Origin: Ensifer aridi
Lineage (GTDB): Bacteria; Pseudomonadota; Alphaproteobacteria; Rhizobiales; Rhizobiaceae
Direction: 5' to 3'
Assembly (NCBI RefSeq): GCF_002078505.1
Contig: NZ_LUAV01000002.1
Location: 7,689 to 71,688 of the forward strand
DNA: 64,000 nucleotides
Shown here: positions 2,562 through 15,958 of the stretch, in pieces
Layout of the letters: each line of letters begins with the position of its first letter
How positions within the stretch are numbered: the first letter of the stretch is position 1
Program-made: the position numbers and the translations under genes
The notes under the pieces: generated by a model
Database searches by the model: none
Seen by the model: only the letters and a program-made list of their open reading frames with translations
Told to the model about the DNA's origin: nothing

Positions 2562-3641
<1,080 letters not shown>

Positions 3642-3667
3642 TGCAATTCCTCCCTGCGGCCTTCGCC

Positions 3668-4741
3668 CTATCTCGTATTCGCGCGCCAATTTGCGTATTT
3701 CGGGCTCTCCGGCCCGATCGGCAGCGATACTTCCTGCCGCGTATCGGCGGACTGGTAAATCGCGGTGACGAGTTCCAGCGCCTGGCGCGCGTCTTTCGTT
3801 GTCACGGGGAGCGGCCCCTTGCCGCTCAAGAAGTCGTGGAAATGCGCCATCTGAGTGGTGAAGCGCGGCGCGACCGGCTGCCAGTCGCCGATCACCTCGT
3901 CGATCCGCGCCTGCACCGCCCCGTTGGCGGCGATGATCTTCCAGGGATCCTTGCCCGGCGCATAGGGCTCATGGCTGCTTTCGAAGGTGACGTTCTCGAA
4001 ATGCAGGCGCAGACGGCTGATCTGCTCCTGGGAGCCGAGCGTACAGGAAAGCGACACGAAGGCGCCGTTTTGCATGAGCAGGCTCGCCGAGGCGCAATCC
4101 TCGACCTCGATGTCGTTGACCCGCGTCGCCACCCGCCCGAACACTTTCGAGACCGGGCCGAGGAGATGCAGCATCATGTCATGCAGGTGCAGCGCGTGGG
4201 TGACGAGCACACCGCCGAGCTCCGTCTCCCAGTTGCCGCGCCAGGGCACGGCGTAATATTCCGGGGTGCGCAGCCAGAAGGTCTCGACCGAGCCGACATA
4301 GGGCTTGCCGGCGATGCCGGCCTCGATGATCCGCTTCGCCTTTTCGATGCCGTCGCCATAGCGATACTGAAAGATCGGCATCAGCACGCCTTTCGCGTGT
4401 TTCTCCGCTTCGATGATCCGGTCGACGCCCTTGAGCGAGCCGGTGAGCGGCTTTTCGCAGATCACGTGCTTGCCGGAAGCAAGAGCATCCAGCACCTGCT
4501 CCAGATGGATGCCGGGCGGCGTGCAGATATCGATGATGTCGATCGTCTCGTCGGCAATGAGTTCCTTGAACGAGGTCGTCCGCTTCTCGATGCCGAATTC
4601 GTCGCCGACCTCGTTCAGCCGCTCCTCGTTCAAATCGCAGAGGGCTTCGACGCGGAACTTCTCCGGATGTGGCAGATAGCCCTCGACGATATGCGATCGG
4701 CCGATGCCGCAGCCGATAATGGCGACTGTCTTTACACTCAT
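3668..4741 (-). CDS. Gfo/Idh/MocA family oxidoreductase
   Basis: This is a 357-residue NAD(P)-dependent oxidoreductase with the classic two-domain layout. The N-terminal Rossmann fold has GCGIGRSH (residues 10-17) and ends in the catalytic EKP motif (CEKPLTGS, 96-98). The C-terminal alpha/beta substrate domain contains GGVLVTHALHLHDMM, where histidines typical of the family's active site lie. The start at 4741 follows the stop of the upstream gene by one base, so the two are translationally coupled. An extension to 4792 is unsupported. It is the second of two consecutive Gfo/Idh genes in the transporter operon, and the family oxidises or reduces hydroxyls of sugars, inositols and glycosides. 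The specific substrate is unknown. Confidence 0.92.
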   Translation of the reverse strand: MSVKTVAIIGCGIGRSHIVEGYLPHPEKFRVEALCDLNEERLNEVGDEFGIEKRTTSFKELIADETIDIIDICTPPGIHLEQVLDALASGKHVICEKPLTGSLKGVDRIIEAEKHAKGVLMPIFQYRYGDGIEKAKRIIEAGIAGKPYVGSVETFWLRTPEYYAVPWRGNWETELGGVLVTHALHLHDMMLHLLGPVSKVFGRVATRVNDIEVEDCASASLLMQNGAFVSLSCTLGSQEQISRLRLHFENVTFESSHEPYAPGKDPWKIIAANGAVQARIDEVIGDWQPVAPRFTTQMAHFHDFLSGKGPLPVTTKDARQALELVTAIYQSADTRQEVSLPIGPESPKYANWRANTR

Positions 4742-4742
4742 G

Positions 4743-5759
4743 TCAGTTCTTTTCCCGGTTCTGTTCGGCGAGCGCTTGGGCGGAAAGGGCAAGCTCCATC
4801 GCCTTGAAGCAGCGTTCCCGCGGCATGGCGGTCTCGGTCCTGTCGCGGATGTCTGCGAGGAACTGCCGACCGAAGGGCAGGTCGACGGCGGAGCAGTCGA
4901 TATGTTGGACGCCGTTTCGGTCGGCGAGGAACAGATGATTGCCGCCCTCGCGCCCGGCGAGATCGACGGTCTTGCGCACCTCGATCGTGCCGGTCGTGCC
5001 GACGATGAAAAGCCGACCGTCGCCCCAGGTCGGCATGCCGTCGGGGGTGAGCCAGTTCACATGAATCATGCCGGTGGCCCGGCCCGTCGACAGATGGATG
5101 TTGCCGGTGTCCTGCAGTTCCGGCTTGTCGGGCACGCTGAGGTTGTCGACATTTGCCGAAAGAATGGTCGCGTCGCTGGCGCCGGTGAAGAACAGGAACT
5201 GCTCGCATTGGTGCGAGGCGATGTCGGTGAGGATGCCGCCATATTCCTCACGCCGGAAGAACCAGTCGGGCCGCGTCTCGCGGCGAAGCCGGTGCGGACC
5301 GAGGCCGACGATATGCACGACCTCGCCGATCGCGCCGGCCGCGACAAGCTCGCCGGCCTTGACCGTCGCCGGGCTTTCGAAATGCTCCGAATAGAGGATC
5401 GAGAAGATGCGCCCCGTCTCGGCCTGGACACGGCGGACCTTGGTGAGCTGATCGAGGCTCGTCATGCCCGGCTTGTCGACGAGCACGTCCTTGCCGTGCT
5501 GCATCGCCCGGATCGCCAGTTCCGCCCGCTCGGCCGAAACGGCGGCCGAGACGATGAGGCCGATGCTCCTGTCCTCGAGTATTTCCTCGAGCGCCGCGAT
5601 GCGGGGCGCGTCCTTGTAGACGCCTGTAAATTCCGCCGCGAGCGTATCGTCCTTCTCATGGAATCCGACGAGGCGGGCGCCGGCCCTGATGAGGCAATTG
5701 ACCTGGCCGTAGATGTGGTTGTGGTTGAGCCCGACGGCGGCGAAACGCAATTCGTCCAT
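4743..5759 (-). CDS. Gfo/Idh/MocA family oxidoreductase (atypical nucleotide loop)
   Basis: This is a 338-residue Gfo/Idh/MocA protein. The usual GxGxxG loop is replaced by AVGLNHNHIYGQ (residues 8-19), and the EKP motif reads VDKPG (94-98). Both variants mark a separate subfamily from the other three oxidoreductases in the cluster. The C-terminal region DIASHQCEQFLFFTGA supplies the expected histidine-bearing segment. I chose the ATG at 5759; a TTG four codons upstream is possible but has poor spacing to GGAG. It lies 30 bp after the permease gene and is coupled to the next oxidoreductase by a one-base gap. It may act on the imported sugar or an oxidised derivative of it. Whether it binds NAD in the canonical way cannot be told from sequence. 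Confidence 0.88.
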   Translation of the reverse strand: MDELRFAAVGLNHNHIYGQVNCLIRAGARLVGFHEKDDTLAAEFTGVYKDAPRIAALEEILEDRSIGLIVSAAVSAERAELAIRAMQHGKDVLVDKPGMTSLDQLTKVRRVQAETGRIFSILYSEHFESPATVKAGELVAAGAIGEVVHIVGLGPHRLRRETRPDWFFRREEYGGILTDIASHQCEQFLFFTGASDATILSANVDNLSVPDKPELQDTGNIHLSTGRATGMIHVNWLTPDGMPTWGDGRLFIVGTTGTIEVRKTVDLAGREGGNHLFLADRNGVQHIDCSAVDLPFGRQFLADIRDRTETAMPRERCFKAMELALSAQALAEQNREKN

Positions 5760-5789: not shown

Positions 5790-6668
5790 TCATGCCGTGG
5801 TTGCGATGCCTTCGATCAGAAGGCGCTGGAAAAACAGGAAGAAGAAGAACACCGGCACGAGCGACAGCGTCGACATGGCGAAGAGGCCGCCCCAGTCGGA
5901 GGTGCTGCTCGAGTCGACGAAGGTCCTGAGGCCAAGCTGGATCGTGTAGGTGTTCATGTCGTTCAGGTAGATGAGCGGCCCGAAGAAATCGTCCCAGGTC
6001 CAGATGAAGGAGAAGATCGCCGCCGTCGCCAGAACGGGAAGCGAGAGCGGCAGCATGATCTTCCAATAGATGCGCCACGGGCCGCAGCCGTCCATCATCG
6101 CCGCCTCGTCGAGCTCGCGCGGAATGCCGCGGAAGAACTGCACCATCAGGAAGATGAAGAAGGCGTCGCTTGCGAGGAACTTCGGCACCACCAGCGGCAG
6201 GAAGGTGTTCACCCAGCCGAGATTGAGGAAGAGCACATATTGCGGAATGAGCGTCACATGGTAGGGGATCATCATCGTCCCCAGCATGATCGCGAACCAG
6301 AAATTGCGGCCTGCAAAACGCAGGCGCGCGAAGGCGTAGGCTGCGAGCGAGCAGGCCACCACATTCCCGATGACGGTCAGGACGGACACGACGAGCGAGT
6401 TCCAGGTGAAGCGCCCAAAGCTCACGTCGAGCCCGAACCAGCCGCGCACATAGGAGGCGAAATCGACCGACGAAGGCCAGAGCGAGGTCGAGGCGAAGAT
6501 CTCGTCCTCCGGTCGGACCGAAGCGGAGATCATCCACAGGAGCGGATAAACCATCGCGATCGACGCGGCGATCAGGGCGGCGTGGATGAGGACCGATCCG
6601 ACGGGGCTGCGACGGCCGGGCGGTGCCGATGGCGGGGCGGTTACCGAGCGCATGGTCGCATCAGTCAT
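5790..6668 (-). CDS. ABC carbohydrate transporter permease, MalG type
   Basis: This is a 292-residue inner-membrane permease with about six hydrophobic segments. The first follows a short cytoplasmic N-terminus (VLIHAALIAASIAMVYPLLW). The cytoplasmic EAA loop that contacts the ATPase is visible as DEAAMMDGCGPWRIYWK. Size and architecture match the MalG/UgpE class of CUT1 importers. Its start overlaps the stop of the upstream permease by 8 bp, a typical coupling for a heterodimeric permease pair. It works with the proteins encoded at 6661-7617, 7622-8908 and 2562-3641. Confidence 0.94.
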   Translation of the reverse strand: MTDATMRSVTAPPSAPPGRRSPVGSVLIHAALIAASIAMVYPLLWMISASVRPEDEIFASTSLWPSSVDFASYVRGWFGLDVSFGRFTWNSLVVSVLTVIGNVVACSLAAYAFARLRFAGRNFWFAIMLGTMMIPYHVTLIPQYVLFLNLGWVNTFLPLVVPKFLASDAFFIFLMVQFFRGIPRELDEAAMMDGCGPWRIYWKIMLPLSLPVLATAAIFSFIWTWDDFFGPLIYLNDMNTYTIQLGLRTFVDSSSTSDWGGLFAMSTLSLVPVFFFFLFFQRLLIEGIATTA

Positions 6669-7617
6669 CGTAGTGCACCCAGTAACGAGAGGTCAGGAAC
6701 GAGAAGGCCGTGAACAGGCCGATAATCAGCACGAGGATCCAGGCGAGCGCCGAGGCATAACCCATGCGGAAGTTCCCAAAGGCCTCCTGATAGAGATAGA
6801 GCGTGTAGAACAGCGTCGAGTTGATCGGCCCGCCGGTGCCCCCGGAGATGATGAAAGCGGGGGTGAAGGCCTTGAAGGCGTCGATCGTCTGCACCACCGC
6901 ATTGAAGAAGATGACCGGCGTCAAGAGCGGCAGCGTGATCTTGTAGAACTGCCGGAACTTGGACGCTCCGTCGAGGCTTGCGGCCTCGTACATGTCGGTC
7001 GGGATTTGCCGGAGGCCGGCGAGGAAGATGATCATCGGCGAGCCGAATTGCCAGACACTCAGGACAACCAGCGTCCAGATCGAATAGTTCGGATGCGAGA
7101 TCCAGCTCGGACCTTCTATGCCGAACTGGGCGAGCAGGCTATTGATCAGGCCGTCGCCGGCAAAGAGCTGCCGCCAGAGCACGGCGATCGCGACGCTGCC
7201 GCCGAGCAGCGACGGCAGGTAGAAGAGGGCGCGGTAGAAGGTGAGGCCCTTCACACCGCGGTCCAGAAGTAGGGCGACAAGCAGCGCGAAGGTGAGCTTG
7301 AACGGTACCGAAAGCACGACATAGAGGAAGGTCACCTGCATCGCGGCGGCGAATTTCGGATCGGCCGTCGCGATGCGGACGTAATTGGCAGTTCCGACCC
7401 ATTCCGGTGAGCGGATCAGGTCGAAGCTCGTGAAAGAGAGATAGAACGAGGCGATGGCAGGCCCGAGCGTCAGGCCGAAGAAGCCGATGAGCCACGGCAA
7501 CAGGAACATGTAGCCTGCTCCGTGTTTCGCCCAGAGGCTGGCCCAGCGGCCCTGTGCGGCGGGGCGCGCCTGGGCGCCCCCACCGATCGCGACAGCGGAA
7601 TCCTGCACGGTCGCCAT
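6661..7617 (-). CDS. ABC carbohydrate transporter permease, MalF/UgpA type
   Basis: This is a 318-residue inner-membrane permease of the MalF/UgpA class. It has a basic N-terminal tail, a first membrane segment beginning near GYMFLLPWLIGFFGL, and about six segments in all. The EAA loop reads YEAASLDGASKFRQFYK. AAGGAG precedes the ATG at 7617, only four bases after the stop of the binding-protein gene. It pairs with the MalG-type permease that overlaps its 3' end. The conserved order of binding protein, MalF-type, MalG-type and distal ATPase supports one importer for a mono- or oligosaccharide-like compound. Confidence 0.94.
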   Translation of the reverse strand: MATVQDSAVAIGGGAQARPAAQGRWASLWAKHGAGYMFLLPWLIGFFGLTLGPAIASFYLSFTSFDLIRSPEWVGTANYVRIATADPKFAAAMQVTFLYVVLSVPFKLTFALLVALLLDRGVKGLTFYRALFYLPSLLGGSVAIAVLWRQLFAGDGLINSLLAQFGIEGPSWISHPNYSIWTLVVLSVWQFGSPMIIFLAGLRQIPTDMYEAASLDGASKFRQFYKITLPLLTPVIFFNAVVQTIDAFKAFTPAFIISGGTGGPINSTLFYTLYLYQEAFGNFRMGYASALAWILVLIIGLFTAFSFLTSRYWVHYDD

Positions 7618-7621
7618 CTCC

Positions 7622-8908
7622 TTAGCCTCGCGACAGGATCTGCGTGACCTCGTTCACCAGCGTCTCGCCGCCCTGTTTGGCATCGAGCTGGCCGAAGGCT
7701 ACCTGTTCGGCGACGCTGCGCAGGGCGAGCTCCGCCTCTCCGGCGCCCGACGGAGGCGGCGGCGGCAGGTCGCCGGCGAGCGCTCCGAGCCCGGAGACAT
7801 AGTCGAGCGCCGCCCGCCCGAGTTCATCGAGCGAGGGCGCGAGCGCTTCGCGCACGGAGGCCGATTCCGGCACGCCGCGTTCGACGCCGAGGATCTTGGC
7901 GGCTTCCGGGTCCTTGACGAAGAAGTTGACATATTTGGCGCCGAGTTCCGGATCGCTGCTCTTGGCCGATACCGAGAAGAACATCGATGGCTTGCGGTAA
8001 TGACCGCCCTTGGCATCCTTGCTGATCAGCGCATGGCTTTTGAGCACGATCTTGTCTTTGTTGATCGCCTGATAGCCGACGAGCTGGTTGGAATGGGCGT
8101 AGGACGTCGCCGCATTTCCGAGCGACAAGGGACTCGTCTCGATATTGAACTGGTCGAGCGCCTGTATATCCGCCGGCACGCAGGCCTTGTCCTCGCGCAT
8201 CTTTTGCCACATGGCAAACCATTCGGCGCCGTCATTCGCGTCATAGGCGATCTTGCCGTCCGCGGTGAAGAGCGCCTTGCCGCGCTGGCGAAGCCAGTTT
8301 TCGAGGAGCGGCTCGACGCCGCTGCCGTCCGAGAGGCCGTAATAGCCCTTGCGCTTGCCGGCCTTGGTGATCTCGACACCCATCCGGGCGAGTTCTTCCC
8401 AGGTGGTCGACGGTGTCGGCAGGTCGACGCCGGCTTCCTCGAAGGCGACCGTATTGACCATCATCGCCGTCGAATTGGCGCCGAGGCTGATACCGTAGAG
8501 CTTGCCATCGACGCTGCCGCCCTTGATCTGCACCTCGTCGAAATCCTCGACTTTCAGCACCGAGCCGAGATAGCTGTCGAGCGGCGCGAGCGCGCCGCGC
8601 CGGGCGTATTCGACGATATAGCGATAGTCCATCTGGATGACGTCGGGCGCATTGCCACCCGCGACCTGGGTTGCCAAGCGCGGCCAGTAGTCGCTCCAGC
8701 CCAGAAATTCACCGTTGATGTCAACCCCGGGATTCGCCTTCTTGAAAAGCTCGCTCACCTTGTTGGTGCGGTCGGCGCGGGTCTGCGATCCCCACCAGAG
8801 CAGGCGCAGCCGCGCCTCCTGCGAAAAAGCGCGCGGCGCGAACGCCGCGTAGGAAAGAAGTGCCGCTCCTCCTGCGAGCACCGTGCGTCTGCTGATGCGA
8901 TGCGTCAT
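7622..8908 (-). CDS. Tat-exported extracellular sugar-binding protein (ABC family 1)
   Basis: This is a 428-residue periplasmic solute-binding protein of the CUT1 family. The N-terminus THRISRRTVLAGGAALL is a twin-arginine signal (SRRTVL) followed by a hydrophobic core and a likely cleavage after AFSQ-A. Tat export suggests folding before secretion. The mature part starts with RLRLLWWGSQTRADRT, typical of family 1 binding proteins, and LGWSDYWPRLATQVAGGNAPDVIQ includes the family's conserved ligand-domain signature. The ATG at 8908 has an excellent ribosome site, GGGAGGAGG. It is the first gene of the long minus-strand operon. The 213-bp gap to the divergent tetR carries two different palindromes, so the operon is probably repressed in the absence of substrate. 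Confidence 0.94.
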   Translation of the reverse strand: MTHRISRRTVLAGGAALLSYAAFAPRAFSQEARLRLLWWGSQTRADRTNKVSELFKKANPGVDINGEFLGWSDYWPRLATQVAGGNAPDVIQMDYRYIVEYARRGALAPLDSYLGSVLKVEDFDEVQIKGGSVDGKLYGISLGANSTAMMVNTVAFEEAGVDLPTPSTTWEELARMGVEITKAGKRKGYYGLSDGSGVEPLLENWLRQRGKALFTADGKIAYDANDGAEWFAMWQKMREDKACVPADIQALDQFNIETSPLSLGNAATSYAHSNQLVGYQAINKDKIVLKSHALISKDAKGGHYRKPSMFFSVSAKSSDPELGAKYVNFFVKDPEAAKILGVERGVPESASVREALAPSLDELGRAALDYVSGLGALAGDLPPPPPSGAGEAELALRSVAEQVAFGQLDAKQGGETLVNEVTQILSRG

Positions 8909-8983
8909 TTGTTCCTCCTCCCTCGGGAGCGCCTCCACAACGCTCCGTGTCATCGTCGTCTTGTTGAGTCCTCTTGCATTAAA

Positions 8984-8997
8984 TAACTAATTGGTTA
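8984..8997. promoter_or_regulatory. Palindromic operator candidate, TAAC-N6-GTTA (site 1)
   Basis: TAACTAATTGGTTA is a near-perfect inverted repeat between the binding-protein operon and the divergent tetR gene. The same half-sites with the same spacing recur at 9849-9862 in front of the next operon. I infer binding by the adjacent TetR-family protein because the two sites flank its gene. Confidence 0.6.
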
Positions 8998-9053
8998 CAA
9001 ATTATGGGCAAGCAATGATCGTGTCAAGCACTTGTGTGAAATGCTGTCATTAT

Positions 9054-9074
9054 CTTGTAATGTATCTTTACAAA
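9054..9074. promoter_or_regulatory. Palindromic operator candidate, TGTA-N9-TACA (site 2)
   Basis: CTTGTA (9054-9059) and TACAAA (9069-9074) frame a 9-base spacer, matching the sites at 1039-1059 and 14589-14609. It lies about 50 bp before the tetR start and about 150 bp before the binding-protein start. It may serve either divergent transcript. Confidence 0.55.
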
Positions 9075-9121
9075 GCCGCATCGAGTGCCGCCAAAGGCAA
9101 GATGTGCCGGAGGTGATGTGA

Positions 9122-9793
9122 ATGGACAAGATGCAAGAGGATGTCAGGCGCAGGGCGGGCGGTCGTGCCGAGCGGCCCACGCAGCGCGATCCCGAGCGCA
9201 CGCGCGCCTCGATCCTCGCCGCGGCCACGAAGGAGTTTGCGGAAAACGGGATCGGCGGGGCGCGGGTCGATGCGATCGCCGAGCGCGCGGGCACGAACAA
9301 GCGCATGCTCTATCACTATTTCGGCGACAAGGAGCAGCTTTACCTCGCCGTTCTGGAAGAGGCCTATGTCGGCATCAGAACGGCGGAAAAATCGGTCAAT
9401 CTCAGTGACTTGGAGCCCGAGCAGGGCATAGCGGAACTCGCCATGTTCACCTGGAGGTATTTCCTGGAGCACCCGGAATTCCTGAGCCTGCTCGGCACCG
9501 AGAACCTGCATCGCGCCCGCTGGCTGCGCCAGTCGACGCGGCTCAAGGAACTGCATTCGCACTTCATCGGCAAGCTTTCCGACCTGCTCGACCGCGGCAA
9601 GGCGAAGGGTCTCTTCCGGGCGGACATCGACCCGCTGAACGTCTATCTGACCATTGCGGCACTCGGCTACTTCTACGTCTCGAACCAGTACACCCTTTCG
9701 ACCATCTTCGGCCGCGACCTCATGGAAGAGGCCAATGTCGAGGCCTGGGAGCGCCACATCGTCCACGTGACCCTGGCATCCATCAGGCGCTGA
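9122..9793 (+). CDS. TetR/AcrR family transcriptional regulator of the sugar cluster
   Basis: This 223-residue TetR-family protein has its helix-turn-helix near residues 25-70. The pattern is TRASILAAATKEFAENG, then GGARVDAIAERAGTNKRMLYHYFGDKEQLY, followed by an all-helical ligand domain that is typical of the family in length. The ATG is preceded by an almost ideal ribosome site, GGAGGTGAT. The gene lies between two operons, one transcribed away and one in the same direction, and TAAC-N6-GTTA palindromes stand at both flanking promoters. I infer that it represses both operons and its own gene until a pathway intermediate binds. It could be an activator instead. Confidence 0.92.
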   Translation: MDKMQEDVRRRAGGRAERPTQRDPERTRASILAAATKEFAENGIGGARVDAIAERAGTNKRMLYHYFGDKEQLYLAVLEEAYVGIRTAEKSVNLSDLEPEQGIAELAMFTWRYFLEHPEFLSLLGTENLHRARWLRQSTRLKELHSHFIGKLSDLLDRGKAKGLFRADIDPLNVYLTIAALGYFYVSNQYTLSTIFGRDLMEEANVEAWERHIVHVTLASIRR

Positions 9794-9847
9794 ATCGACC
9801 CGATGTCGTTTTTTCTGTTGACAAGTGTGTTTTTCGTCTGTCACAAA

Positions 9848-9863
9848 GTAACCGTTTAGTTAC
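9848..9863. promoter_or_regulatory. Palindromic operator candidate, TAAC-N6-GTTA (site 2)
   Basis: GTAACCGTTTAGTTAC has perfect 5-base arms and lies 55 bp before the start of the gene at 9918. It shares half-sites and spacing with 8984-8997, on the other side of tetR. The pair supports local TetR control of both operons. Confidence 0.6.
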
Positions 9864-9917
9864 TGGCTTGGGAGGGCTGGTCCGCTCCCTTGGAAAGCCT
9901 GGCAGGGAGGAGACCGC

Positions 9918-11066
9918 ATGCCGCGTTTGGGGATCATATTGCACGGCGTCACCGGCCGGATGGGGTATAACCAGCATCTGGTGCGCTCTATTCTGGCCAT
10001 CCGCGATCAGGGCGGGCTAACGCTCAAATCCGGCGAGCGGCTGGAGATCGATCCGATCATTGTCGGGCGCAACCGCGACAAGATCGAGCAATTGGCCAAG
10101 CGTCATAACATCGCTCGCTGGTCGACCGACCTCGACGCCGCACTCGCCGATGCAAACGATCAGATATTCTTCGATGCCGGCACGACGCTGATGCGTGCCG
10201 AACTGATCGGCAGGGCGCTCGACGCCGGCAAGCACGTCTATTGTGAGAAGCCGATTTCGGATGATCTGAGGACCGCGGTGAAGCTGGCGCGGAAGGCGCG
10301 CGCCTCGGGCCTGAAGCACGGCGTGGTGCAGGACAAGCTGTTCCTGCCCGGGCTGCGCAAGCTGGCGCTCTTGAGGGACTCCGGCTTCTTCGGAAAGATC
10401 CTGTCCGTGCGCGGCGAGTTCGGCTATTGGGTCTTCGAGGGCGATTGGGGCGTGCCGGCCCAGCGGCCCTCCTGGAATTATCGCAAGAAAGACGGTGGCG
10501 GCATCATCCTCGATATGCTCTGCCACTGGCGCTATGTGCTCGACAACCTCTTCGGAGAGGTCAAGGCGGTCTCCTGCCTCGGCGCAACGCATATTCCGAC
10601 CCGCATCGACGAGCAGGGGCGGCCCTATGAGTGCGACACCGATGACGCGGCCTATGCGACCTTCGAGCTCGAAGGCGGCGTGATTGCGCAGATCAATTCC
10701 TCCTGGGCGGTGCGCGTGCGCCGCGACGACCTCGTCACTTTCCAGGTCGACGGCACGCATGGCTCGGCCGTCGCCGGGCTGACGAAATGCTGGACCCAGC
10801 ACCGCGTCAATACGCCAAAGCCGGTCTGGAATCCGGACCAGCCGCAGACCATCGATTTCTACAAGACCTGGGACGAGGTGCCGGACACGCAGGCCTTCGA
10901 CAACGGGTTCAAGGCTCAGTGGGAGATGTTCCTGCGCCACGTCGCCGAGGACGCTCCCTGGCCCTACGGGCTCGAGGCCGGCGCCAAGGGCGTGCAACTC
11001 GCCGAGTTGGGTCTGAAGTCCTGGGCCGAGCGCCGCTGGCTCGACGTTCCGGCACTGGAGTTCTGA
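9918..11066 (+). CDS. Gfo/Idh/MocA family oxidoreductase
   Basis: This 382-residue oxidoreductase opens with a dinucleotide loop, HGVTGRMGYNQHL, that resembles the DapB-type GxxGRMG motif rather than the usual GxGxxG. The catalytic EKP is at residues 110-112 (YCEKPISDD). The C-terminal domain contains DGGGIILDMLCHWRYVLDN, the expected active-site helix. GGGAGGAG precedes the ATG. It begins a tight plus-strand operon (9918-14505) of five genes with gaps of 4 bp or less, or short overlaps. It is one of four Gfo/Idh enzymes in the cluster, and their sequence divergence suggests separate steps rather than duplicates. The substrate is unknown. Confidence 0.91.
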   Translation: MPRLGIILHGVTGRMGYNQHLVRSILAIRDQGGLTLKSGERLEIDPIIVGRNRDKIEQLAKRHNIARWSTDLDAALADANDQIFFDAGTTLMRAELIGRALDAGKHVYCEKPISDDLRTAVKLARKARASGLKHGVVQDKLFLPGLRKLALLRDSGFFGKILSVRGEFGYWVFEGDWGVPAQRPSWNYRKKDGGGIILDMLCHWRYVLDNLFGEVKAVSCLGATHIPTRIDEQGRPYECDTDDAAYATFELEGGVIAQINSSWAVRVRRDDLVTFQVDGTHGSAVAGLTKCWTQHRVNTPKPVWNPDQPQTIDFYKTWDEVPDTQAFDNGFKAQWEMFLRHVAEDAPWPYGLEAGAKGVQLAELGLKSWAERRWLDVPALEF

Positions 11067-11069
11067 GCC

Positions 11070-12233
11070 ATGGTCAGAATCGATCTCCCCCAGGAAGGCC
11101 GCCTCGCCCGTTACGAACTGACGGGCCGGCCGGTTCCCCTGAAGAAGCGTGACGCGGCCGCCTTCGCGCGGGTCGCCTTCGCCGCGGCCCATGTCGTCGC
11201 CGATCCGCTGGCGGACAACGATCCATGGCTCATGCCGGCGATCGATTGGGAGCGCACGCTCGCCTTCCGTCACCGCCTATGGGATCTCGGCCTCGGGGTC
11301 GCCGAATCGATGGATACGGCGCAGCGCGGCATGGGGCTCGGCTGGCCGGAGGCGCGCGAGCTCATTCGCCGCTCCCTTGCCGAGGCGCGCGGCCGCTCCG
11401 GCGCGTTGATCGCCTGCGGCGCCGGCACCGACCATCTGGCGCCCGGGCCGGATGTGTCGATCGACGATATCCTCAAGGCCTACGAGAGCCAGATCGAAGC
11501 GATCGAAGCCGAAGGGGGCCGCATCATTCTGATGGCGAGCCGGGCCCTCGCCGCCGCGGCAAAGGGACCGGAGGACTATATCCGCGTCTACGACCGCGTT
11601 CTCTCCCAGGTGAAAGAGCCGGTGATCATCCATTGGCTCGGCGAAATGTTCGATCCGGCGCTCGATGGCTATTGGGGCAATGCCGATCACATGGAGGCGA
11701 TGAAGACCTGCCTGGCGGTGATCGAGGCGCATGCCGAGAAGGTCGACGGCATCAAGATCTCGCTCCTTTCCAAGGAAAAGGAGATCGTGATGCGGCGGCA
11801 ATTGCCGAAGGGCGTGCGCATGTATACGGGCGACGACTTCAACTATGCGGAGCTCATTGCCGGTGATGCCGAAGGCTATTCGGATGCGCTGCTCGGCATT
11901 TTCGATGCGATTGCGCCGGTCGCCTCTGCGGCGCTCGAGGCGCTCGGCAAGGGGCGGAACGGCGAATTCTTCGAGCTGCTCGAGCCGACGGTGCCGCTCT
12001 CGCGCCATATCTTCAAGGCGCCGACGCGTTTCTATAAGACCGGCGTCGTCTTCCTCGCTTATCTGAACGGCCTGCAGGATCATTTCATCATGATCGGCGG
12101 CCAGCAGAGCGCCCGCTCGCTCGCCCATCTCGCCGAGCTTTTCCGCCTGGCGGACAAAGCCGGTGCTCTCGCCGATCCGGACCTCGCGGTTGCTAGGATG
12201 CAGCGCGTTCTCGCCGTTCACGGTGTTGCGTGA
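11070..12233 (+). CDS. DUF993 family protein (dihydrodipicolinate synthase-like)
   Basis: This 387-residue protein matches my recollection of the DUF993 family, annotated loosely as dihydrodipicolinate-synthase-related TIM barrels. Visible landmarks are LIACGAGTDHL, RIILMASRALA, the strand EPVIIHWLGEMFDPAL, VDGIKISLLSKEKE with a lysine where class I aldolases carry the Schiff-base residue, and RMYTGDDFNY. It follows the oxidoreductase by 3 bp and overlaps the region before the next start, so it belongs to the same transcript. I infer that it acts on a keto-sugar made by the oxidoreductases, but no reaction is established that I can cite. It is distinct from the DapA-like protein at 61-1017. 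Confidence 0.85.
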   Translation: MVRIDLPQEGRLARYELTGRPVPLKKRDAAAFARVAFAAAHVVADPLADNDPWLMPAIDWERTLAFRHRLWDLGLGVAESMDTAQRGMGLGWPEARELIRRSLAEARGRSGALIACGAGTDHLAPGPDVSIDDILKAYESQIEAIEAEGGRIILMASRALAAAAKGPEDYIRVYDRVLSQVKEPVIIHWLGEMFDPALDGYWGNADHMEAMKTCLAVIEAHAEKVDGIKISLLSKEKEIVMRRQLPKGVRMYTGDDFNYAELIAGDAEGYSDALLGIFDAIAPVASAALEALGKGRNGEFFELLEPTVPLSRHIFKAPTRFYKTGVVFLAYLNGLQDHFIMIGGQQSARSLAHLAELFRLADKAGALADPDLAVARMQRVLAVHGVA

Positions 12234-12241
12234 GGCGCGGC

Positions 12242-13660
12242 ATGAGCGAAGCGCCGCGCGTCAGACTCGTCGAAGCGGAAATATTTGAGCGTCCGGTCGA
12301 TTTTCGCTTCCCCTTCCGTTTCGGTGCGGCGCGTGTCGAGCGCGCACCGCAGGCTTTCGTTCGGGTGCGGATCGAGGACGAAGGCGGCCGCTCCGCCGCC
12401 GGCTGGGCGGCCGAGATGATGATGCCGAAATGGTTCGACAAGAGCCCGACGCTTTCGCCGGACGACAATGTCGGGCAGCTTCGCAGGTCGCTGCATCTGG
12501 CGATCGAAGGGCTCAAATCCCTGCCCGCGAATACCGCTTTCGGCCTTCACGCCGCCGCCGAGGCCGATCATCACCGCATGGCCGCGCATGAGGGCCTTCC
12601 GGCGCTGGTCGCCTCCTATGGGCTGGCGCTCGTCGACCGCGCCATTATCGACGCGCTGTGCCGGCTCGAGGCAACGAGTGCTGCCGCGGCCGTCCGGAAC
12701 GATCTCCTTGGTATCACCGACGCGACCGCGCCCGACCTCGCGGGCTTCGACCTGCCGGGTTTCCTCTCGCGGCTGGAGCCTTCGCCGCGCCTTGCGGTAC
12801 GGCATACGATCGGTCTCGCCGACGCGCTGACGGCCGCCGATGTCGAGCCGGCGCAGTGGCTGGAGGACGGCCTGCCGCAGACGTTGGAGGAGGTGATCGC
12901 GGCCTATGGTCACCGCTATTTCAAGATCAAGGTGTCCGGCCGGCCCGAACAGGACGTGGAGCGACTGCTTGCCGTCACGGCGGTGCTCGACCGTGCCATT
13001 GGCGACTACCGGGCGACGCTCGACGGCAACGAGCAGTTCGAGAGCGCCGATGTCGCGGTTGATTTCCTCGAACGTGTGCAAAGAGAACCGCGCCTCGCAA
13101 GGCTCCGCCATTCGCTTCTCTTCTTCGAACAGCCGATAGCGCGGGCAGAGGCGCTGTCGCGATCGGTCGCCGCCGTAAGCGAACGAATACCGCTGGAGGT
13201 AGACGAGTCCGACGGCGATGTCGGAGCCTTCCTGCGCGCCCGCGAACTCGGCTATGCGGGCATTTCGTCGAAGTCCTGCAAGGGCTTCTATCGGTCGCTG
13301 CTCAATCGCGCCCGGGTCGAGAAGTGGAATAGCGAGGTCGGCTCTTCCCGCTATTTCGTCTCAGCCGAGGATCTGACGACACAAGGCGGCATCGGCCTGC
13401 AGCAGGACCTTGTCCTCGCCGCGCTCGTCGGCGCCGGGCACGTCGAACGCAACGGCCATCATTATGTCGACGGCATGGCCGGAGCCCCGGCGAGCGAGCA
13501 GGCCGCCTATCTCGCTGCGCATGGCGATCTTTACGAGAACGGGAATGGCCGCGCGCGACTCGCGATCAAAGCGGGCGAGATCAGCTTTGCGTCCGTGCTG
13601 CGAGCAGCCGGCCTCGGCTCCGCGGTCGAGCCGGACTGGGCGGCTATGTTGCGCTCATGA
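12242..13660 (+). CDS. Enolase-superfamily (mandelate racemase/dehydratase-like) protein
   Basis: This protein of about 472 residues has an enolase-superfamily C-terminal barrel. The lysine pair K228-x-K230 (YFKIKVSG) sits at the end of barrel strand two. Metal ligands follow at D261 (DGNEQF), E296 (FFEQP) and D321 (EVDESD), with further lysines in SSKSCKG. These residues abstract the alpha proton of a carboxylate, so a sugar-acid dehydratase, epimerase or racemase is likely. It is longer than the typical 370-400 residues, and the N-terminal part is divergent. GAGG six bases upstream supports the ATG at 12242; a GTG at 12230 overlaps the previous stop. It sits fourth or fifth in the inferred oxidative pathway. 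Confidence 0.82.
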   Translation: MSEAPRVRLVEAEIFERPVDFRFPFRFGAARVERAPQAFVRVRIEDEGGRSAAGWAAEMMMPKWFDKSPTLSPDDNVGQLRRSLHLAIEGLKSLPANTAFGLHAAAEADHHRMAAHEGLPALVASYGLALVDRAIIDALCRLEATSAAAAVRNDLLGITDATAPDLAGFDLPGFLSRLEPSPRLAVRHTIGLADALTAADVEPAQWLEDGLPQTLEEVIAAYGHRYFKIKVSGRPEQDVERLLAVTAVLDRAIGDYRATLDGNEQFESADVAVDFLERVQREPRLARLRHSLLFFEQPIARAEALSRSVAAVSERIPLEVDESDGDVGAFLRARELGYAGISSKSCKGFYRSLLNRARVEKWNSEVGSSRYFVSAEDLTTQGGIGLQQDLVLAALVGAGHVERNGHHYVDGMAGAPASEQAAYLAAHGDLYENGNGRARLAIKAGEISFASVLRAAGLGSAVEPDWAAMLRS

Positions 13661-13680
13661 GAAATGGGGGAGGGAATCCA

Positions 13681-14505
13681 ATGCAGGTCGAGGGCCTTTC
13701 GATCAATCTGGCGACGATCCGCGCGCAGTGCAGCTTCGCCGAGGCCGTGGATATCTGCCTCAAGCACGGGATCACGGCGATTGCTCCCTGGCGCGACCAG
13801 GTGGCCGCGATCGGTCTCGAGGAGGCGGCTCGCATCGTCAAGACCAACGGGCTCAAGCTCACCGGGCTCTGCCGCGGCGGCTTCTTTCTGGCCGGCGACG
13901 CGGCGGGCCGGGAAAAGGCCCTCGACGATAACAGGCGCGCGATCGACGAGGCGGCGGAGCTCGGCGCGGATTGTCTCGTGCTCGTCGTCGGCGGCTTGCC
14001 CGGCGGCTCGAAGAATATCGATGCGGCCCGCCGCATGGTCGAGGAGGGCATTGCCGCGGTCCTGCCGCATGCTCGTGCGGCGCAAGTGCCGCTCGCGATC
14101 GAGCCGCTGCACCCGATGTACGCCGCGGACCGCGCCTGCGTGAACACGCTCGGCCAGGCGCTCGATATCTGCGAAGCGCTCGGCCGAGGCGTCGGTGTCG
14201 CGATCGACGTCTATCATGTCTGGTGGGATCCCGACCTCGCAAATCAGATCGCGCGCGCCGGCAGAATGGAGGCGATCCTTGCCCACCACATCTGCGATTG
14301 GCTGGTTCCGACCAAGGATATGCTCACGGACCGCGGCATGATGGGCGACGGGGTCATCGACCTCAAAGGCATCCGGCGCCGGGTCGAAGCCGCCGGTTTC
14401 CATGGACCTCAGGAGGTGGAGATCTTTTCGGCCGAGAACTGGTGGAAGCGTCCGGCCGAAGAGGTGATCGCCACCTGTGTAGAGCGTTATCGAAGCTGCT
14501 GTTGA
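13681..14505 (+). CDS. Sugar phosphate isomerase/epimerase-like TIM barrel (AP endonuclease 2 family)
   Basis: This 274-residue protein is a xylose-isomerase-like TIM barrel. Landmarks are LSINLATIRAQCSFAEAVD at the N-terminus, LVLVVGGLPGGSKN, the metal-binding IEPLHPMYAADR segment, VGVAIDVYHVWWDP, HHICDW and the late glutamate in PQEVEIFS. Such proteins isomerise or epimerise keto sugars or act on 3-keto-glycosides. I chose the ATG at 13681 because GGGGGAGGG lies at ideal distance; the ATG at 13657 overlaps the preceding stop but has no such site. It ends the operon that starts at 9918. Pairing with Gfo/Idh enzymes is common in inositol and keto-sugar pathways. Confidence 0.88.
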   Translation: MQVEGLSINLATIRAQCSFAEAVDICLKHGITAIAPWRDQVAAIGLEEAARIVKTNGLKLTGLCRGGFFLAGDAAGREKALDDNRRAIDEAAELGADCLVLVVGGLPGGSKNIDAARRMVEEGIAAVLPHARAAQVPLAIEPLHPMYAADRACVNTLGQALDICEALGRGVGVAIDVYHVWWDPDLANQIARAGRMEAILAHHICDWLVPTKDMLTDRGMMGDGVIDLKGIRRRVEAAGFHGPQEVEIFSAENWWKRPAEEVIATCVERYRSCC

Positions 14506-14609: not shown

Positions 14610-14668
14610 CCAGTACCGTTACCGCCGGTCGCGCGGCTTCACCCCAGACAGGATTGCGTGAGGAAATG

Positions 14669-15958
14669 ATGGACAACAAGCGTCGTTTTGCGCTGGTCGG
14701 CACCGGCAATCGCGGAACCACCATGTGGGGCAAGGATCTGCTGGCCGGCTGGCGCGGCCTCGTCGATCTCGTCGCCATTGCCGACACGAATTCGCTGAGG
14801 GCCGAGCGGGCCCGCACGATGATCGCCACCAATGCGCCGATCTACGGCAATGTCGACAGGATGCTTGCCGAGGCGCGCCCGGATCTCGTCATCGTCTGCA
14901 CACCGGACGACACGCATGATGACATTGTCGTCAAGGCGCTCGAATCCGGCGCCGACGTCATCACCGAAAAGCCGATGTCCACCACCGTGAAAAAGATCCG
15001 CCGCATCCTGGAAGCGGAGAAGCGCACCGGCCGGCGAGTGGACGTCTCCTTCAACTACCGCTTCGCGCCGACGGCTGCGCGCATCAAGGAGCTGCTCGCC
15101 GCCGGCGAAATCGGCCGCGTCACTTCCGTCGACTTCCACTGGTATCTCGACACGCGGCACGGGGCCGACTATTTCCGCCGCTGGCACGCCTATACGGCGC
15201 GCTCGGGCAGCCTCTTCGTGCACAAGGCGACGCACCATTTCGATCTTTTGAACTGGTATCTCGATAGCGATCCGGAAGCGGTCACCGCCTTTGCCGACCT
15301 GCAGATGTATGGCCGCAAGGGTCCATTCCGTGGGCCCCGCTGCAAGCTCTGTCCCCACAAGGGCGAGTGCGACTTCTATCTCGACCTCAAAGCCGATCCG
15401 TTCCTCGATGCGCTTTACGAGGAGCCTTCCGAGATCGACGGCTATTTCCGCGACGGCTGCGTCTTCCGCGAAGACATCGACATTCCGGACACGATGGTCG
15501 CGAATATCCGCTACCGCAACGACGTTCACGTCTCCTATTCCTTGAACACTTTCCAGCCGATCGAGGGCCACCACATCGCCTTCAATGGCACGAAGGGCCG
15601 GATCGAGCTGCGCCAATACGAGGACCAGCCGTGGGAGACGCCGCCGGAGGACGTTATCCTGCTCGTCCGCAACTTTCCAAAAGGCAAGCCGGCGATGGAG
15701 CGCATCACGGTGCCGCATTTCCCGGGCGGGCATTATGGCGGCGACGATAGGTTGCGGAACATGCTGTTCAAGCCCGACGCGAGCGACCCGCTCGGACAGC
15801 GGGCGGGAGCGCGCGCCGGCGCGATGTCCGTCCTCTGCGGCATCGCGGCGCTTGAAAGTTCGCGCACGGGCAGGCTCGTGCGCCTCGCCAGCCTGATGCC
15901 CGAGCTCTTCACCGAGGGGGTTCCGGCGGTGCGCAAGGTCGCGGCGAATGCGGGCTGA
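14669..15958 (+). CDS. Gfo/Idh/MocA family oxidoreductase with cysteine cluster
   Basis: This 429-residue oxidoreductase has GTGNRG (residues 11-16) in its Rossmann fold and the EKP motif in ITEKPMSTT. The substrate domain includes VHKATHHFDLLNWYLDS, the usual active-site histidine helix. It also contains cysteines C225, C228 and C234 (CKLCPHKGEC), with C264 further on, which suggests a bound metal. It is longer than the other three Gfo/Idh proteins by 50-90 residues. GAGGA precedes the tandem ATGs at 14666 and 14669, and the second has the better spacing. It has its own promoter region with a TGTA-N9-TACA palindrome, so I place it in the same regulon even though it is not co-transcribed with the genes before it. 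Confidence 0.9.
   Translation: MDNKRRFALVGTGNRGTTMWGKDLLAGWRGLVDLVAIADTNSLRAERARTMIATNAPIYGNVDRMLAEARPDLVIVCTPDDTHDDIVVKALESGADVITEKPMSTTVKKIRRILEAEKRTGRRVDVSFNYRFAPTAARIKELLAAGEIGRVTSVDFHWYLDTRHGADYFRRWHAYTARSGSLFVHKATHHFDLLNWYLDSDPEAVTAFADLQMYGRKGPFRGPRCKLCPHKGECDFYLDLKADPFLDALYEEPSEIDGYFRDGCVFREDIDIPDTMVANIRYRNDVHVSYSLNTFQPIEGHHIAFNGTKGRIELRQYEDQPWETPPEDVILLVRNFPKGKPAMERITVPHFPGGHYGGDDRLRNMLFKPDASDPLGQRAGARAGAMSVLCGIAALESSRTGRLVRLASLMPELFTEGVPAVRKVAANAG

Follow-up and report, generated by a model that had tools for sequence, protein, structure and literature searches.

Two matching palindromes that flank a tetR gene of Ensifer aridi are most probably operators at which the product of that gene would switch off the operons on both sides together; judging from sequence comparison, we put the probability of this reading at about 0.85. 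The palindromes lie in a 64-kb stretch of DNA, the whole of which was analysed and is called the window here. The initial annotation had reported a TAAC-N6-GTTA pair at 8984-8997 and 9849-9862 and had placed one site before a transporter operon and the other before an oxidoreductase operon, on either side of tetR. The pair is confirmed, both matches to TAACN6GTTA in the window being found there, and the layout is as described when the sequence is read together with its open reading frames (Table 1). The motif forms the core of a 16-bp palindrome, GTAACYRNNYRGTTAY, whose spans describe the sites better. The left site is 75 bp from the start of the solute-binding protein (SBP) gene (8908, minus strand) and 124 bp from the start of tetR (9122), while the right site lies 55 bp past the tetR stop and 55 bp ahead of the start of the oxidoreductase gene gfo3 (9918). 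Besides its transporter parts, the left operon includes two Gfo/Idh oxidoreductase genes and an ATPase gene.

Table 1. Positions of the predicted operators, promoter elements and genes of the tetR locus in the window.
Feature	Position	Strand	Remarks
Left operator (putative), GTAACCAATTAGTTAT	8983-8998 (core 8984-8997)	-	15/16 columns invariant, 31 genus rows
Right operator (putative), GTAACCGTTTAGTTAC	9848-9863 (core 9849-9862)	+	14/16 columns invariant, genus rows
TTGACA (-35-like), transporter operon	9022-9027	-	30 bp before operator core
TTGACA (-35-like), oxidoreductase operon	9818-9823	+	31 bp before operator core
tetR, TetR_N + TetR_C_29 regulator	9122-9793	+	Predicted fold resembles RutR; gene order matches S. 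meliloti SMc04134
ABC solute-binding protein SBP_bac_1 (SBP)	7622-8908	-	First gene of left operon; nearest solved chains 4r6k, YesO 5z6b
ABC permease A (permA)	6661-7617	-	Left operon
ABC permease B (permB)	5790-6668	-	Left operon
gfo2, Gfo/Idh/MocA oxidoreductase	4743-5756	-	Left operon
gfo1, Gfo/Idh/MocA oxidoreductase	3668-4756	-	Left operon
ABC ATPase	2562-3689	-	Read from ORF sequence; start codon uncertain
gfo3, Gfo/Idh/MocA oxidoreductase	9918-11066	+	First gene of right operon; solved relative 3oqb
DUF993 protein	11070-12233	+	Solved relative 4dnh
Enolase-superfamily (MR_MLE_C) protein	12242-13660	+	Right operon
Sugar phosphate isomerase/epimerase-like TIM barrel	13678-14505	+	Relative of S. 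meliloti SMc04130 (3ju2)
gfo4, Gfo/Idh/MocA-like oxidoreductase	14654-15958	+	From ORF, solved relatives and Ak57 annotation; start codon uncertain

The core motif occurred in none of 100 dinucleotide shuffles of the window, and when each gap was shuffled alone (20,000 dinucleotide shuffles) at least one match arose in 20 shuffles of the left gap and 5 of the right. The organism's own genome (6.6 Mb, 79 contigs) has 9 places that match the loose pattern TAACN6GTTA, against 53 for the reversed control, and it has the tighter form TAACYRNNYRGTTA at exactly the two sites of this locus, against 5 for its reversed control; by these comparisons the genome-wide motif count is unremarkable and is not raised, and it is the location of the sites that stands out. 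The idea that they are chance palindromes, or RNA hairpins with no protein partner, takes its appeal from the shortness of the motif and the nine loose matches in the genome, but it has a vanishingly small probability in view of the shuffle controls, the conservation of the sites above that of the surrounding gaps and their locked position relative to the promoters, and we regard it as ruled out by the shuffles and the conservation.

Within the genus, the sites were found to travel with the genes. A TetR orthologue (at least 83% identity) is present in 31 of 33 genus genomes, our own included, with only weaker TetR matches in the other two (G015 and G017), and gfo3 is present in the same 31 genomes and absent from the same two (E <= 1e-90); the two genes are thus jointly present or absent in all 33. 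Both sites are kept in every one of the 31 congeneric loci (L010-L040, including this one), and also in three loci from further genera (L041-L043) whose TetR is 60-79% identical. When the columns of the genus alignment (31 rows for the left gap) are counted, 15 of 16 are invariant in the left site compared with 78 of 187 in the rest of its gap (Fisher p 7e-5), and 14 of 16 in the right site compared with 48 of 106 (Fisher p 0.002), the columns that these tests treat not being fully independent. Inside the sites, the genus varies between C and T at one position and between A and T at the centre. Another inverted repeat, TTGTAA-N7-TTACAA, is located at window positions 9055-9073, in the gap that separates tetR from the left operator; the genus rows preserve its left arm and, for the most part, its right arm, and it may be part of tetR's own promoter or a site for another regulator.

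The position of each site relative to a TTGACA hexamer is similarly constrained. The left hexamer is exact in all 34 aligned rows, at 30 bp from the core in 33 and 31 bp in one, and of the 35 aligned rows on the right, 32 have the exact hexamer at 31 bp, two have it at 30 bp and the remaining one has it at 32 bp with one mismatch. The pattern extends to the larger set of 80 loci described below: TTGACA is exact in 25 of 29 SBP promoters, always at 29-32 bp (the other four have at least three mismatches). Of the 39 gfo3 promoters, 26 have it exact, 25 of these at 30-31 bp and one at 27 bp, and the remaining 13 have one mismatch at 28-32 bp. A sigma-70 consensus scan of 8850-9950 that required a TATAAT-like -10 element found no promoter, and the -10 and start positions are therefore placed from TTGACA alone. 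At the usual promoter spacing the cores of the sites would span about -6 to +8, and both sites would thus probably lie over the transcription start, a position that argues for repression.

In the mechanism that we infer, from dimerisation, binding and repression to the inducer, the placing of the -10 element and the transcription start, and any control of tetR by its own product, a TetR dimer would sit on GTAACYRNNYRGTTAY, covering the start of transcription immediately after the -10 region, and would keep RNA polymerase off two promoters that both begin with TTGACA. The likeliest inducer is the sugar-like compound that is transported, or one of its metabolites, and it would bind the C-terminal domain of TetR; the inducer-bound repressor would then leave the DNA, allowing the uptake and breakdown genes to come on together. 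Activator sites usually lie upstream of the -35 element, and the cores here start 30-31 bp beyond the first base of TTGACA, which places them over the start site. A TetR that occupies both sites as an activator or dual regulator has precedent, since some TetR-family proteins do activate (the available text of PMC7382501 describes FasR as an activator), but given where the cores lie we consider this improbable here.

To what extent the sites follow the operons can be seen in a wider set of genomes. A profile search of genome contigs gave 551 loci, the best 80 of which were kept; they are not a random sample of TetR proteins, as the seed patterns of the search include part of the recognition helix, they overlap with an earlier collection of gfo3 and tetR loci in at least 6 loci, and related genomes among them are not independent. 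The pattern was counted within 300 bp upstream of a gene, and no locus with a gene over the identity threshold was dropped. In these best 80 of 551 loci it stands upstream of SBP in 29/29 and of gfo3 in 39/41, the arm-reversed control CAATN6ATTG being found in 0/29 and 1/41 of the same regions, respectively. The inner genes are devoid of it (DUF993 0/34, permA 0/29, permB 0/30, gfo1 0/27, gfo2 0/18, TIM barrel 0/35, ATPase 0/23), it is rare before the enolase-like gene (1/10) and gfo4 (2/20), and it precedes tetR in 37/79. At two loci (L162 and L187) gfo4 directly follows tetR, and the site after tetR precedes gfo4.

The arrangement of the genes varies among these loci. In Sinorhizobium, Rhizobium and Agrobacterium the common order is SBP, site, tetR, site, gfo3, and in six Devosia loci (L215, L217, L222, L223, L224, L226) it is gfo3, site, tetR, site, SBP, with more than 1 kb between tetR and the second (SBP) site in the last four of these. 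The gfo3 site is kilobases away from tetR in L196, L200 and L204, and in G065 (L151), where the operons run in one direction, tetR, gfo3 and SBP each have a site of their own. Because gene order differs or tetR lies elsewhere, the sites can be separated from tetR's own flanks; we rejected the possibility that they are a passive part of those flanks, as they remain with the operons under other gene orders. That a single TetR serves both operons, as the initial annotation had proposed, thus draws support from the comparison of sequences at both scales, in the 31 of 31 congeneric loci and in the SBP and gfo3 counts of the larger set. It is conceivable that only one site is functional, for instance if the left site, which is also upstream of tetR, served tetR autoregulation only or if one operon had escaped control, and a site does lie within 300 bp upstream of tetR at nearly half of the loci counted. 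We nevertheless hold this to be very improbable, given that the SBP site in the four Devosia loci is over 1 kb from tetR while gfo3 keeps its own, and that both operons are covered in nearly all of the 80-locus set that holds them.

One genome, G069 (L134), has sites at both operons and no match of this TetR between them. It is the kind of case expected if another transcription factor, such as a TetR relative encoded elsewhere, used the sites and the local tetR regulated something else; our own genome holds at least 19 matches to this TetR, and sites beside tetR come and go on the TetR tree. Against this, the sites, the operons and a member of the TetR group co-occur across many genera and gene orders, G069 itself encodes a 50% TetR relative on the contig that carries gfo3, about 19 kb from that gene, and no exact site flanks tetR, over 400 bp upstream and 350 bp downstream, in 20 loci with weaker TetR relatives (42-48%). 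On balance we think it unlikely that another factor replaces the local TetR at these sites. The control provided by the weaker relatives is a soft one, because two of the 20 loci (L131 and L132) lie near gfo3, one such genome having sites before gfo3 (L140), and because Devosia TetR relatives at 46-51% identity do have sites; one-mismatch sites also occur in L114, L116 and L122. By these sequence comparisons TetR identity alone does not separate the loci with sites from those without. Site presence requires 12 changes on the TetR tree and is not a clean property of one clade, loci with sites falling on both sides of the midpoint of what is a rough FastTree phylogeny with open forks and flagged long branches.

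The sites are missing from a number of distant loci. Among 18 loci collected around gfo3, the exact pattern is found just before gfo3 in seven (L134, L135, L140, L147, L148, L149, L151) and is absent from that position in ten (L136, L137, L138, L139, L141, L142, L143, L145, L146, L150), where the gfo3 match of L145 is only 43%; L144 begins inside gfo3. In L138, L139, L141, L142 and L143 the promoter may lie further up, because an enolase-like gene precedes gfo3, and L138 and L146 have a site near tetR. No variant palindrome resembling the operator was found before gfo3 in L136, L137 and L150, or before tetR in L136, L137, L139, L142, L143 and L150. The absence of sites at these loci implies that some of the distant lineages have dropped or changed this control. 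Two further loci (L183 and L190) have a site by tetR that is more than 1 kb from gfo3. In Chelativorans (L164 and L165, positions 6001-7949) two TetR relatives, one of 64 or 60% identity and the other of 54%, are encoded convergently about 0.7 kb apart, and neither the interval nor its immediate surroundings hold an exact operator; in L165 a site precedes a gfo3 gene about 5 kb further on.

The candidate regulon would extend as far as Pararobbsia alpina (L181), a betaproteobacterium. We lean, with distinctly less confidence than for the two operators themselves, towards a portable TetR regulon that is marked by TAACYRNNYRGTTA, crosses alphaproteobacterial families, reaches at least one betaproteobacterium and serves one uncharacterised catabolic pathway (gfo3, DUF993 and the TIM-barrel enzyme, with or without the ABC transporter). 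If this is true, the operator would be a tag that delimits the genes of the pathway, and TetR would be a handle on its substrate.

The protein encoded by tetR has the attributes of the TetR family: a helix-turn-helix domain, a known class of C-terminal domain and, in the predicted structure, an all-helical two-domain fold. The helix-turn-helix (PF00440) is matched at residues 31-77 with an E value of 2e-16 and 59.9 bits (cut-off 24), and the C-terminal domain is PF17938 TetR_C_29 (E 1.1e-42). An AlphaFold2 model (mean pLDDT 91.1) has 12 helices of at least 4 residues, and when this predicted structure is used as the query its nearest solved folds are TetR proteins. In the recognition region N59, K60, R61, Y64 and Y66 are invariant in 32 aligned relatives, an invariance favoured by a search whose seed patterns included part of the recognition helix.

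Among solved structures the model matches RutR with uracil bound best (4jyk; 27% identity, with a TM of 0.73 for the query and 0.82 for the target), and RutR is also the top NCBIfam match (TIGR03613), but at 58.9 bits against a cut-off of 368, so by this sequence score the local protein is not a RutR orthologue. The RutR box, presumably TTGACCAnnTGGTCAA, appears to share the centre ACCAnnTGGT with TAACCANNTGGTTA, the perfect form of the local site. The outer half-site differs between the two; TAACCAA is the commonest half-site of the 80-locus set (41 of 136). RutR is described as binding a palindrome of about 16 bp (PMC10891134, in the available text). The contexts also differ: RutR of E. coli is concerned with pyrimidine use, whereas the local TetR is flanked by ABC transporter, Gfo/Idh, DUF993 and TIM-barrel genes. 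In S. meliloti Ak57 (L060), genes for a cytidine deaminase and a thymidine phosphorylase are annotated at a greater distance along the stretch, beyond a cadmium ATPase gene.

Repressors of the TetR/QacR type are commonly encoded beside their target operons. The local TetR resembles them in that its gene adjoins its proposed targets, with palindromic operators at the promoters; it differs in that two operons, for uptake and catabolism, have one site each on either side of tetR, and there is no efflux pump. The system would be an ordinary kind of local TetR repressor on an unstudied pathway. For an uptake and breakdown system that is conserved in rhizobia and their relatives, it provides a concrete predicted pair of regulator and operator; the inducer of TetR would point to the pathway substrate and the operator can help to locate pathway genes in other genomes. 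By locus order, tetR is very probably the same gene as SMc04134 of S. meliloti 1021, which PMC11387232 names as a transcription factor in its computed regulatory networks. The available text of that paper gives no operator sequence and no link of SMc04134 to these two operons; it was the only paper on SMc04134 found, and among the matches listed no operator was described for the protein.

The genes of the two operons point to a pathway that is uncharacterised and probably sugar-related. The solved relatives (YesO, DgpA) suggest sugar or glycoside chemistry for its substrate without settling it, and 3oqb, 4dnh and 3ju2 are listed just as an oxidoreductase or as uncharacterized proteins. A literature search on DUF993 found no paper, and no described function for this uptake and breakdown system was found in the literature searched. 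S. meliloti Ak57 has the same gene order, with two tight-pattern sites at the corresponding places and a gene annotated as UgpC in the place of the ATPase. The TIM barrel matches 3ju2, which is named SMc04130; the other SMc numbers were assigned by gene order, and these assignments agree with the gene descriptions in the available text of PMC12542648.

Expression data from S. meliloti are available in the same source. In module 6 of its Table 2, the log2 ratio of phbC phaR to phbC in TY medium is -1.69 for SMc04132 and -3.65 for SMc04133, and -1.23, -1.31 and -1.07 for SMc04135, SMc04138 and SMc04139, respectively (PMC12542648, available text). By gene order these are DUF993 and gfo3 of the right operon and SBP, gfo2 and gfo1 of the left. 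Members of both operons thus drop together, which fits common control, in a comparison that concerns phaR and in which the regulator is not named; SMc04130, 04131, 04134, 04136, 04137 and 04140 are absent from the main text of that paper.

A wider regulon in the organism's own genome was sought and rejected: the tight pattern has its two places only, the 16-bp form with up to two mismatches gave 90 forward and 98 reverse matches compared with 192 and 187 for the reversed control, and no additional target can be put forward. One more match, TAACCGCGCAGTTA, is found away from the locus in at least six congeneric genomes (G008, G025, G013, G023, G029, G011) and may represent either coding sequence that is conserved or another target. 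Near-identical matches of the form GTAACCRNCCGGTTGT lie fewer than 30 bases from the contig start in G000 (C1:6-21, C21:6-21, C33:14-29, C60:6-21), with two more at C18:160747-160762 and C22:345183-345198, a distribution expected of a repeated element that interrupts the assembly. At the far end of the left operon, beyond the ATPase reading frame, a minus-strand ORF at 61-1017 appears by eye to be of the dihydrodipicolinate-synthase type and a plus-strand ORF at 1136-2065 to be SMP-30/gluconolactonase-like; S. meliloti Ak57 has an SMP-30/gluconolactonase annotated near the place that corresponds to 61-2065.
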